Source of the DNA: Kiritimatiellia bacterium
GTDB lineage: Bacteria; Verrucomicrobiota; Kiritimatiellia; CAIVKH01
NCBI GenBank assembly: GCA_025054615.1
Contig: JANWZO010000003.1
Location: 45,627-109,626 of the forward strand
Direction of reading: 5' to 3'
Length of the DNA: 64,000 nt
Shown: positions 32,751 through 36,002 of the stretch, in pieces
How the letters are laid out: every line of letters begins with the position of its first letter
How positions within the stretch are numbered: position 1 is the first letter of the stretch
Position numbers and translations under genes: made by a program
Notes under the pieces: model-generated
The model's database searches: none
The model's input: only the letters and a program-made list of their open reading frames with translations
What the model was told of the DNA's origin: nothing

Positions 32751-33884
32751 TCAATATTTCGGAACAGAGGGGTCGACCGTCTCGGACCACGCGAGGCAAC
32801 CGCCCCGAAGGTTGAACAGCTCCCCGGGGAATCCTGTCGACATTAGTTGCCGGATGACCATCGCGCTTCGCCCGCCGGACTTGCAGAACACGACGGTGGG
32901 GCGGGACGGGTCCAACTCTGTAATTCGATTGAGGCATTCGCGCATCGGGATTTCATGCGTAGCAGGAAGCCTCGCAATGGCACGCTCGCTGTCCTCGCGG
33001 ACGTCGAGGATGTTCACTGGACGGCCCTCGTCGAGCCACCGTTTCAATTCTCGCGGCTCGATCTCCCGAATTTTTACAGCAGGAAAACAGACGGGTTGCA
33101 TGACCGGTTGGAGGCTGCGGATCGTCGGCGAGTTCCCGCAAAGCGGGCATGCGGGGTCTTTTTTCAGGCGAAGTTCGCGGATGCGCATCCCGAGCGCGTC
33201 AACCATGAGCATCCGGTTCACCAGCGGATCGCCGCGACGAAGGATAAGCTTGATGGCTTCCATCGCCTGTAAGCAGCCCAACAGTCCCGGCAAAACGCCG
33301 AGGACGCCCGCTTCGGCGCATGAAGGTATGGCGCCGGCAGGGGGCGGCTCGGGGTGGAGGCAACGATAGCAGGCGCCATGCGCCGCCCAAAACACGGCGA
33401 CTCGGCCCTCGAATCGCTGGATGGCGGCATGCACGTTCGGTTTGCCCGCCAGCGCACACGCGTCGTTCACCAGATACCGCGTCTCGAAATTGTCGGCGCC
33501 GTCCACCACGATGTCGTAGGCTCGGGCGAGCTCCATCCCGTTTCGCTCGGAGAATCGCTCGGGATGCTCAACGAGTTCGATGTGCGGATTAAGATCGGCG
33601 AGACGATCCCGAGCGGCGGTGACCTTGAGGCGGCCGAGGTCTCGCTCGCCGTAAAGAATTTGCCGATGAAGATTCGACGCGTCGACGGTGTCGGGGTCCA
33701 TGAGGCCGATGCGTCCCACGCCGGCCGCCGCCAGGTAGTATGCGGCCGGGGAACCCAGGCCGCCGAGACCCACCACGAGCACACTCGCCCGCTTGAGCGC
33801 GATCTGGCCTTCCTCGCCGATTTCGGGAAGCCGCATTTGGCGCAGGTATCGCGCGCGCTCGACCTGGTGGAGTGGCGTGACCAT
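32751..33884 (-). CDS. moeB: MoeZ/MoeB-type adenylyltransferase with C-terminal rhodanese domain
   Basis: 377 aa from the ATG at 33884; an in-frame GTG at 33947 would add 21 residues unlike the family. The N-terminal E1-like domain (RQMRLPEIGEEGQ, GLGGLGSPAAYYLAAAGVG, DPDTVDASNLHRQ) adenylates the C-terminal Gly of small sulfur carriers. Two Cys pairs (CYRC, CPLC) bind zinc. The rhodanese domain ends with active-site loop CKSGGRSA. Such fusions make thiocarboxylated ThiS, MoaD or CysO-like carriers. Convergent with hypB and divergent from the cysteine operon, fitting a sulfur role. No carrier gene is adjacent. Confidence 0.9.
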   Translation of the reverse strand: MVTPLHQVERARYLRQMRLPEIGEEGQIALKRASVLVVGLGGLGSPAAYYLAAAGVGRIGLMDPDTVDASNLHRQILYGERDLGRLKVTAARDRLADLNPHIELVEHPERFSERNGMELARAYDIVVDGADNFETRYLVNDACALAGKPNVHAAIQRFEGRVAVFWAAHGACYRCLHPEPPPAGAIPSCAEAGVLGVLPGLLGCLQAMEAIKLILRRGDPLVNRMLMVDALGMRIRELRLKKDPACPLCGNSPTIRSLQPVMQPVCFPAVKIREIEPRELKRWLDEGRPVNILDVREDSERAIARLPATHEIPMRECLNRITELDPSRPTVVFCKSGGRSAMVIRQLMSTGFPGELFNLRGGCLAWSETVDPSVPKY

Positions 33885-34110
33885 GGAGGGGAATATGGCT
33901 TGAACATGGGTAAACCTCAACGGGCTTTGGTCGGGGGTCGAGGGCACCCGCGTGCCGGATGTCGATTAGGTGATTGCGGTAGCCGACAAGGGGCAGGGAT
34001 CGCCATGTCCAAAATCGTTGGTCCAGGTGGAATCGGACGCTCCACAAAGGGCGCGTGAGGAGCCGTCCTACTTTCCAGGTGGCGGGATGTCGTCCTCTGC
34101 GTTCCGATTT

Positions 34111-34163
34111 GGAGGGACAGGTTCCACCCTGTCCGGGAAAGGCCCGCGTGGAAGCGGGCCCTC
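34111..34163. repeat. Twin hairpins with mutually complementary loops
   Basis: Hairpin 1: GGACAGG (34115-34121), loop TTCCAC, CCTGTCC (34128-34134). A GGGAAA spacer follows. Hairpin 2: GGCCCGC (34141-34147), loop GTGGAA, GCGGGCC (34154-34160). Each stem has seven perfect pairs. The two 6-nt loops are exact reverse complements. GAGGG at 34113-34117 and CCCTC at 34159-34163 could also close an outer stem. Looks like an intergenic structured repeat or an RNA that can form a kissing-loop. Confidence 0.65.
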
Positions 34164-34535
34164 GACGGGATCGTCCAGCCGCAGAGGCCTGGCCTAAAAA
34201 TTCACCATCGTTACGCGGTCGTAGAAAAACGGTATCTGACTTGGTATCGGAAATGGTATCTGTGTCGTTCTAAACTCGTTTCCGATCTTCAACCCGATAT
34301 CGAACACGACCTCGTGAGAGATTTTGCGCCGCATTCTCGCAGTACCATCGTCCATCTCATCGGTTTTCCCGCCACCGGAACGGGATCGATGCCTGCCAGT
34401 ATATGAGGAACTATTTTACAGACTCATGACAGCCAGCCGTCTTCCATTCATTGCGACGCTGGAGGGGGCGAAAGATAGCTTGCTGCCATATCTCAAATGC
34501 TGATTATGGCAGTCTGATAAAATTTTGTGGAATGC

Positions 34536-34570
34536 TTGACAATCCCGACTAACTCTATATATTTAGTCGG
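34536..34570 (+). promoter_or_regulatory. cysK promoter with overlapping Rrf2-type operator
   Basis: -35 TTGACA at 34536-34541, 16-bp spacer, -10 TATATT at 34558-34563. An exact inverted repeat, CCGACTAA (34545-34552) and TTAGTCGG (34563-34570), flanks 10 bp and covers the spacer and -10, so a dimer bound here would block RNA polymerase. The second gene of the operon encodes an Rrf2 regulator, the obvious candidate. AGGAG precedes the cysK ATG at 34590. Confidence 0.75.
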
Positions 34571-34589: not shown

Positions 34590-35549
34590 ATGGGAAGAAT
34601 TTTTGCAGACAATTCGCTTTCGATTGGGCGCACGCCGTTGGTTCAAATCAATCGCATCACAAAGGGTGCGAAGGCGCGCGTGGTGGCCAAAATCGAGGGC
34701 CGGAATCCCGCGTATTCCGTGAAATGCCGAATCGGCGCATCCATGATTTGGGATGCCGAGGAACGGGGCGTGTTGAAGCCGGGCATGGAAATTGTTGAGC
34801 CCACCAGCGGGAATACGGGAATCGCGCTTGCCTACGTTGCTGCGGCGCGGGGTTACAAGCTGACGCTGACGATGCCCGAGACCATGAGCATCGAGCGACG
34901 GCGCGTGCTGGCGGCGTTTGGGGCGAACCTCGTTTTGACGCCGGGACCGGAAGGCATGCGCGGCGCAGTGAAGCGGGCGGAAGAAATCGCGATGTCCGAT
35001 CCGGAAAAGTATTTCCTTCCTCAGCAATTTAAGAATCCGGCGAATCCGGCCATTCACGAGAAAACGACAGGCCCGGAAATTTGGGAGGACACAGACGGCC
35101 AGATTGACGTGCTGGTGGCTGGGGTCGGTACGGGAGGGACGATCACCGGCGTGTCGCGGTTCATCAAGAAGAAGATGGGCAAGCAAATTTTGTCGGTTGC
35201 GGTGGAGCCGCGGGAAAGTCCGGTCATCACCCAGCGCCTGAACAATCAGGAGCTCAAGCCCGGGCCGCACAAGATTCAGGGGATTGGTGCAGGATTCATT
35301 CCGGACACACTGGACCTGAACATGGTTGATCGGGTTGAGCAGGTCAGCAGCGAGGAGGCGGTGGAGATGGCGCGGCGACTGGCGACTGAAGAAGGTATTC
35401 TCGCAGGGATCTCCTGCGGCGCCGCAATGGCCGTTGCGGACCGGCTCGCCCGACAGGATGAGTTTGCCGGCAAACTGATCGTGGTCGTACTGCCAGATGC
35501 CGGCGAGCGGTATTTGTCGACGGTTCTGTTTCAGGGGATCGGCGTCTAG
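34590..35549 (+). CDS. cysK: Cysteine synthase A (O-acetylserine sulfhydrylase)
   Basis: 319 aa. PLP-dependent formation of L-cysteine from O-acetylserine and sulfide. Lys45 in YSVKCRIGA is the Schiff-base residue, TSGNTG the substrate loop, [10 protein letters not shown] the phosphate loop; SCGAAM is near residue 285. ATG at 34590 is preceded by AGGAG. First gene of the sulfur/siroheme unit, with its own regulated promoter. Confidence 0.96.
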
Positions 35550-35561
35550 CCCATACGCCCG

Positions 35562-36002
35562 ATGATCTCGAATCGATGCCATTATGCGCTTCGCGCGATG
35601 TTGGAGCTGGCGCTGCAGGAAGGGCGGGGTCCGCTGACCATCAGCGAGATCGCGTCGGCGCAAAACATTCCCGTCCGTTTTTTGGAGGCGATCATGCGCC
35701 AATTGAAGCTGGCGGGGCTCGCCGATTCGCTGCGCGGCAAAACGGGCGGCTACTTTCTGGGGAGGCCGGCCGAACAGATCCACATTGGCGAGATCCTGGA
35801 CCTATTTGAGGGGCCGTTTTTTACAAACAGCGAGCAAGTGGGGCCTCACGTCATTCGCGAGGCCGAATCGGATGTCTTTGCCCCGATTTGGCGTGAGGCG
35901 GATGAATCGCTCCGCGCTGTATTTCGGCGTCACACCCTTGCGCGCCTGGCCGAGCTGGAGCAGCAGCGCCGGGATGCAGCGGCGCAGAATTACTCGATAT
36001 GA
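35562..36002 (+). CDS. Rrf2 family transcriptional regulator (CymR-like)
   Basis: 146 aa. A winged-helix N-terminus carries CHYALRAMLELAL, LTISEIASAQNIP and the recognition segment RFLEAIMRQLKLAGL; LRGKTGGYFLGRP is the Rrf2 wing. The three clustered cysteines of IscR are absent (only Cys6), so it is not an Fe-S sensor of that kind. In Gram-positives CymR senses cysteine supply through CysK; here the gene sits directly after cysK, supporting a similar role. Likely binds the palindrome at 34545-34570. Confidence 0.9.
   Translation: MISNRCHYALRAMLELALQEGRGPLTISEIASAQNIPVRFLEAIMRQLKLAGLADSLRGKTGGYFLGRPAEQIHIGEILDLFEGPFFTNSEQVGPHVIREAESDVFAPIWREADESLRAVFRRHTLARLAELEQQRRDAAAQNYSI

Follow-up and report, generated by a model that had tools for sequence, protein, structure and literature searches.

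Twin hairpins between divergent genes of a Kiritimatiellia genome as a probable REP doublet with a TGGAG tag and differing stems

Two perfect hairpins that stand a few bases apart and bear loops complementary to each other raise the question of whether those loops were selected to pair or were brought together by some other process. The window analyzed here, a stretch of 64,000 nucleotides from a contig of a Kiritimatiellia bacterium, holds such a pair in an array between two divergent genes that are given for context only: a gene on the minus strand (32751..33947) coding for a ThiF domain and a rhodanese domain and a gene on the plus strand (34590..35549) coding for a PLP-dependent, cysteine-synthase-like enzyme. 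As an earlier note on this DNA had described, twin hairpins with 7-bp stems are separated by the spacer GGGAAA (34135..34140) and carry exactly complementary hexaloops; the whole feature spans 34110-34165 and reaches a tag on each side beyond these hairpins. Unit 1, on the plus strand (34110..34134; E 2.6e-9 with model R1), is made up of the tag TGGAG (34110-34114) and a hairpin with the stem GGACAGG (34115-34121), the loop TTCCAC (34122-34127), and the closing stem CCTGTCC (34128-34134). Unit 2 is inverted (34141..34165, minus strand; covariance-model match with E 2.0e-8) and, in letters of the plus strand, presents the stem GGCCCGC (34141-34147), the loop GTGGAA (34148-34153), which is the exact reverse complement of TTCCAC, and the stem GCGGGCC (34154-34160), beyond which lies its own tag on the minus strand, TCGAG (34161-34165), with one change from TGGAG. 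The array also contains a third unit in decay (34015..34046, minus strand; E 8.8e-4), which has the TGGAG tag and the TTCCAC loop with incomplete stem pairing.

That such a pair would seldom form by chance is confirmed by a search for perfect hairpins with 7-bp stems and complementary 6-nt loops lying 20-60 nt apart, which recovers exactly one instance in the window and none in 300 dinucleotide-preserving shuffles of it. When the strand is folded as DNA, the two hairpins come out as the structure of lowest energy (z -2.4), with a stability equaled or exceeded in 6 of 200 shuffles, and both are likewise predicted in the RNA fold (z -1.95; 10/200). The idea that the pair is a small RNA fares poorly: the window hairpins have no match in Rfam and no terminator-like site, and stems of the family show no excess of G.T over A.C mismatches (43 vs 37, P 0.58). 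Apart from the hairpins, a perfect inverted repeat, CCGACTAA-N10-TTAGTCGG, lies at 34545-34570 upstream of the cysteine synthase-like gene and overlaps the -10 element of a good sigma-70-like promoter (34536-34563). Because an Rrf2-type regulator is encoded downstream of this gene (35562-36002), the inverted repeat looks like its operator.

A DNA search of the organism's own assembly (2.48 Mb in 51 contigs) returned further copies, the alignment of which reveals that both window hairpins are one and the same unit in opposite orientations. The consensus of this unit comprises the TGGAG tag, a 7-bp stem of GG plus five free bases, and the TTCCAC loop. The exact pattern TGGAGGGN{4,10}TTCCAC has 40 matches in this genome, 20 per strand, against none for the reversed control, and every match has exactly five free bases, although four to ten were permitted. 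A covariance model built from 50 units finds 62 matches, and a count by arrays, from which one weak long-insert match was excluded, gives 64 units in 18 arrays; among these, 53 have the loop TTCCAC and 50 the tag TGGAG, while the stems run to 21 different words. These stems covary, with 95.6% of pair cells standard and 87 double-change cells versus 26.6 in shuffled data. All 18 arrays lie between likely genes by a crude gene call, and they are mosaics built from common segments; of the 45 neighbor pairs in them, 29 stand in inverted orientation (P 0.07) and 16 in tandem. The proposal that the hairpins belong to a mobile intergenic repeat is thus upheld, and the genome-wide motif search that had been suggested as its check finds the unit dispersed, in about 62 copies. 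No gene family is common to many arrays among 234 open frames around them, where only groups of two to three recur. Several flanks (L046, L049, L051, L055, L056, and L057) also share a second repeat of ~100 bp outside the hairpin arrays.

The unit extends well beyond this organism. A set of 77 related genomes, the own genome among them, contains 36 with matches to the covariance model, and at the level of the phylum, 24 of 387 genomes have the exact tag-loop pattern (one control hit). With a pattern that leaves ten stem bases free, 77 of the matches listed are from outside the own genome; 68 of these pair at four or five of the five free positions, and the 77 comprise 32 different 5-mers. Such pairing at unconstrained positions confirms the stem independently of the covariance model. 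A scan of named genomes yielded at least 104 stretches with a unit, which, among the matches listed, come from Kiritimatiellae, Lentisphaerae, Opitutia, other Verrucomicrobia, Sumerlaeia, and others; further hosts among the matches listed are a deltaproteobacterial MAG, Thermogutta, and an Anaerolineales MAG. The loop varies by lineage, as TTCCAC, CTCCGT/CTCCGC, TGCCAC with a GGGAG tag, or TTACAC. Two loci are worth recording for their own sake: an array that repeats every 88-89 bp (L282 on G059:C107), in which TTCCAC and TGCCAC units with the tag GGGAG alternate in opposite orientation, and a pair of viral-collection contigs (L193 and L194) that have one identical unit and the same flank in common. 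Literature searches (full-text repeat words, Kiritimatiellia with palindromic repeats, and REPs with Verrucomicrobia) brought up no published description of the TGGAG/TTCCAC unit bar the general REP paper PMC3733652, judging by titles and the opening of abstracts; Figure 1 of that paper gives family consensuses for O. terrae and R. baltica, and one for the present class may already have been printed there.

The free part of the unit itself appears subject to a rule that emerges when neighbors are compared. For this comparison, we used loci L001-L286 and the window, a non-random sample with 179 distinct neighbor pairs within 60 nt of each other under 51 genome or record labels, some of which denote one genome; 130 of the pairs are inverted and 49 tandem. 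The two members never have the same stem in the 71 head-to-head pairs (~9.9 expected by within-genome shuffling) or in the 59 tail-to-tail pairs (~12.2 expected), whereas tandem neighbors share it in 12 of 49 cases (13.4 expected). After collapsing repeated types, stems at most one mismatch apart are seen in 1 of 92 inverted versus 21 of 38 tandem pairs (Fisher 6e-13); within-genome shuffling of the collapsed types alone is not significant (head-to-head, P 0.12; tail-to-tail, P 0.26). Position-specific partner rules, as at positions 3 and 7 in head-to-head pairs, give a weak signal at most. As inverted neighbors have no common stem, a doublet cannot form one long duplex through its stems, and the switch to such a duplex that had been proposed for the window falls away. 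The best explanation for the differing stems of inverted neighbors is that long perfect palindromes are lost or fail to propagate. Since short-read assemblies may also drop perfect palindromes, the rule calls for long reads. A preference for hetero-dimers is known from many REP families, for which the consulted part of Di Nocera et al. (2013; PMC3733652) gives no obvious explanation and tentatively relates the preference to protection from SbcCD.

Evidence of mobility comes from insertions into genes. The aconitase gene of one relative (G022), an 895-aa open frame, contains a head-to-head doublet in frame, which is absent from the aconitase alleles of two congeneric genomes (G045 and G173). 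Their empty site reads TAT/TAC, CTG/TTA, CCG ACN GGC GA(A/G), against TAT CT, the element, and GAA in the occupied allele. The element measures 52 nt, its first base being the T of TGGAG and its last the A of CTCCA, and its insertion replaced ~10 nt of the target, with no target duplication and no inverted repeats at the ends. The occupied and empty alleles together indicate that the element ends at its tags. A second in-frame doublet resides in an N-6 DNA methylase gene (L136), and doublets are also found alone, with unrelated flanks. At other loci (L247-L256 in G057 and L257-L261 in G012), paired units lie within MITE-like elements of ~130-150 bp with terminal inverted repeats. The elements of these two genomes are mutually unrelated, with distinct terminal inverted repeats and what look like target duplications of 9 bp and 4 bp; hence, hitch-hiking does occur, and other transposases spread the units too.

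Which enzyme might move the stand-alone doublets? At loci defined by the Pfam Y1_Tnp domain (PF01797; 30 genes and one own-genome fragment), units at E<=0.05 are found in none of 31, and across 77 genomes the numbers of Y1_Tnp genes and of units are uncorrelated (Spearman -0.09, P 0.44). The first verdict of no RAYT link, which had been reached by PF01797, was overturned by a unit pair in frame inside a RAYT gene that this Pfam model does not score, and by a wider survey of RAYT loci. The gene in question (L122, 3449-4048, on the same contig as G022:C41) matches the NCBIfam model for REP-associated tyrosine transposases (NF047646, E 1.2e-24), and its protein has relatives in 47 of the 77 genomes. 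Units at E<=0.05 occur at 11 of the best 30 RAYT loci, some of them as weak matches with other loops, versus none of the 31 Pfam-defined loci (Fisher 1.3e-4; 2.7e-4 minus the discovery locus); when the count is restricted to strong matches (E<1e-3), the contrast is 4 of 29 versus 0 of 31 (P 0.049). Seven of the 11 have a RAYT with a readable open frame, and in the alignment of these seven, five (from G022, G051, G037, G012, and G059) have in-frame units at a common position that falls between the HUH and Y motifs; the remaining two (G063 and G060) have flanking units and no insert. The subfamily with in-frame units is represented by loci L122, L292, L299, L303, L296, and L293, and a Pfam Y1_Tnp search overlooks RAYTs of this NF047646 kind, as seen for the one member tested.

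The own assembly has no match in a search with the RAYT of G022, and NF047646 detects no more than a fragment of another RAYT (E 4.9e-8), which lies at the end of a contig and has no unit nearby. The RAYT link therefore holds for the family and not for the window's own genome. A relative with 55 units (G028, 96% complete) has no match to any RAYT probe used; it has either lost the transposase or relies on a different enzyme. With this scope, the earlier note's suggestion of a recognition site for a RAYT-like protein gains ground, as relatives of the unit adjoin or sit within RAYT genes of other species, which makes the unit a candidate for such a site.

These features invite comparison with the described REP systems, here as far as the consulted portions of the respective papers go. 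Like the REPINs and RAYTs of Bertels and Rainey (2011; PMC3116915), the present family has short palindromic units that are inverted around a spacer, dispersed, and extragenic, with compensatory stem changes, and related units lie near a RAYT, here in relatives. It departs from REPINs in that the stems of a doublet always differ, making the long REPIN hairpin impossible through the stems, and in that the constant parts are the tag and the loop, not a whole 16-mer. Likeness to the GTAG- and CGTC-tagged REPs (PMC3733652) extends to tagged stem-loops, subfamilies with alternative complementary stems, head-to-head, tail-to-tail, and head-to-tail dimers, a preference for hetero-dimers, in-frame gene insertions, and presence in Verrucomicrobia; what sets the present unit apart is the TGGAG tag, the 6-nt TTCCAC loop or its lineage variants, and the GG stem base. 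The GTAG or GT[AG]G foot is not a regular part of it, with GTGG found across columns 2-5 in nine of 50 aligned units and GTAG in one of 50, and it also falls outside the CGTC superfamily, which is defined by a CGTC tag, a stem starting with AT, and no transposase, as its tag is TGGAG and its stem starts with GG. Two marks of a REP are nevertheless present, namely, a short palindrome in many intergenic copies (the 62 model matches and 18 arrays described above) and a repeat-flanked RAYT, the latter in relatives and not in the own assembly.

In-frame REPs within the RAYT gene are reported in PMC6006769 as unique to TnpAREP subclass 2.4, which equals RAYT group 4; the five RAYTs with units between HUH and Y are likened to this subclass by the habit of the insert. 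The paper differs in giving GT[AG]G feet, and the consulted part of it does not name Kiritimatiellia or Opitutus-type hosts. The enterobacterial BIMEs, as outlined in the same paper, are similar as intergenic mosaic arrays of inverted and tandem units and dissimilar in that the present family has a constant tag and loop, many stem words, and stems that differ by rule between inverted neighbors. The unit is best read as an orderly new member of the known REP class, with hetero-stem doublets and a TGGAG tag in the place of GT[AG]G.

We can now return to the loops. A selected kissing loop or a hairpin/long-duplex switch, in RNA or DNA, would require that the loops pair, and the loops of the window are indeed exact complements, as are those of 23 of the 29 inverted neighbor pairs of the own genome. 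However, the loop word is nearly constant, and inverted copies of it are complementary anyway. Where the loop does vary, as in the other six of these pairs, the neighbor compensates in none (0/6), the very outcome that the earlier note had named as refuting its kissing loop, albeit in small numbers; across all loci, the two loops differ in 48 of 130 inverted pairs. Moreover, tandem neighbors, whose loops are unable to pair, are common (16/45 in the own genome and 49/179 overall), and none of the 130 inverted neighbors has the shared stem that a duplex would demand. On this comparison of loop words, the complementarity seen in the window is a by-product of inversion and not a selected contact, and a selected contact or switch appears the most improbable of the explanations considered. 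A conserved pairing of tag to loop (TGGAG with TTCCA) was likewise rejected, as lineages alter one and keep the other; mixes among 489 units include TGGAG with TTACAC (10), GGGAG with TGCCAC (14), and GGGAG with TTCCAC (15).

Two other explanations would dispense with a RAYT. The units could be cargo of DDE-type MITEs or of array recombination, the link to RAYTs being incidental, and the paired units inside the MITE-like elements of G057 and G012, the mosaic make-up of the own-genome arrays, and the unit-rich genomes without a RAYT (G028 and G000) all fit such an account. It is at odds with the stand-alone doublets in unrelated flanks and with the aconitase insertion, which stops at the tags and shows neither inverted repeats nor target duplication; further, families and phyla alike keep the tag, loop, and pairing, a conservation for which passive cargo would have no use. 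We consider it unlikely. Less likely again, if somewhat ahead of the selected loop contact, is a non-mobile site retained by the host for a protein or as an mRNA 3'-end element (gyrase, IHF, or an exonuclease barrier). The placement of all 18 own-genome arrays between likely genes and the functions that REPs generally have in DNA and mRNA, as outlined in part of PMC6006769, speak for it; against it stand the patchy occurrence of the exact pattern within the phylum, the insertions inside coding genes, the lack of a terminator-like site and of strand-specific wobble pairs, and the position of the window array between divergent genes.

The feature is thus very probably a REP doublet, that is, a REPIN-like, head-to-head pair with its tags outside, and a dispersed non-autonomous palindromic repeat of a RAYT. 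Its unit anatomy, stem covariation, and dispersal, the occupied and empty alleles in a relative, and the RAYT adjacency in relatives are all directly observed; binding and mobilization of the unit by a RAYT we infer. Against this reading count the own genome, in which no intact RAYT of the associated kind is found, G028, with no match to any RAYT probe used, the missing correlation of Y1_Tnp genes with units, the spread of paired units inside longer elements of other transposases, and the tag, which is TGGAG and not GT[AG]G. Each unit would fold into its own hairpin in a single-stranded state, as during replication or transcription, and a RAYT-type HUH/Y1 transposase would recognize the loop and the 5' tag and sense that the stem is paired, whatever its sequence, before cutting the doublet and then copying or moving it. 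In vitro, a group 3 TnpAREP is reported to need loop bases and the tag and to be harmed by stem mismatches (PMC8266576, as partly consulted), and the same source has it little affected by swaps of the stem sequence. Because the present unit has a fixed tag and loop and a stem that is paired yet free, matching these constraints, the units most likely serve, by analogy, as RAYT substrates and move as doublets, with binding and cutting as predicted activities.

Beyond this, we tentatively put forward a broader picture, which we regard as a serious possibility short of a probable one: these repeats may form a cross-phylum REP class with its own code of TGGAG tag and loop (TTCCAC, CTCCGT, TGCCAC, or TTACAC, depending on the lineage) and with a stem that serves as a free "spacer" and is rewritten time and again. 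Inverted partners would be obliged to differ in stem and could hence adopt only the two-hairpin "clover" fold, which, in the part of PMC3116915 consulted, is the form proposed to be recognized by the RAYT; such doublets would escape palindrome-cutting nucleases and at the same time present a RAYT-readable form. The family renders testable a point that the consulted text of PMC3733652 states as open, the reason for the frequency of hetero-dimers among REP pairs. It is suited to this purpose, with a stem separable from the recognized parts, tandem neighbors as an internal control, and occupied and empty alleles at hand. More generally, these findings add Kiritimatiellia and their neighbors to the hosts of RAYT-REP pairs whose RAYT gene carries REPs in frame.
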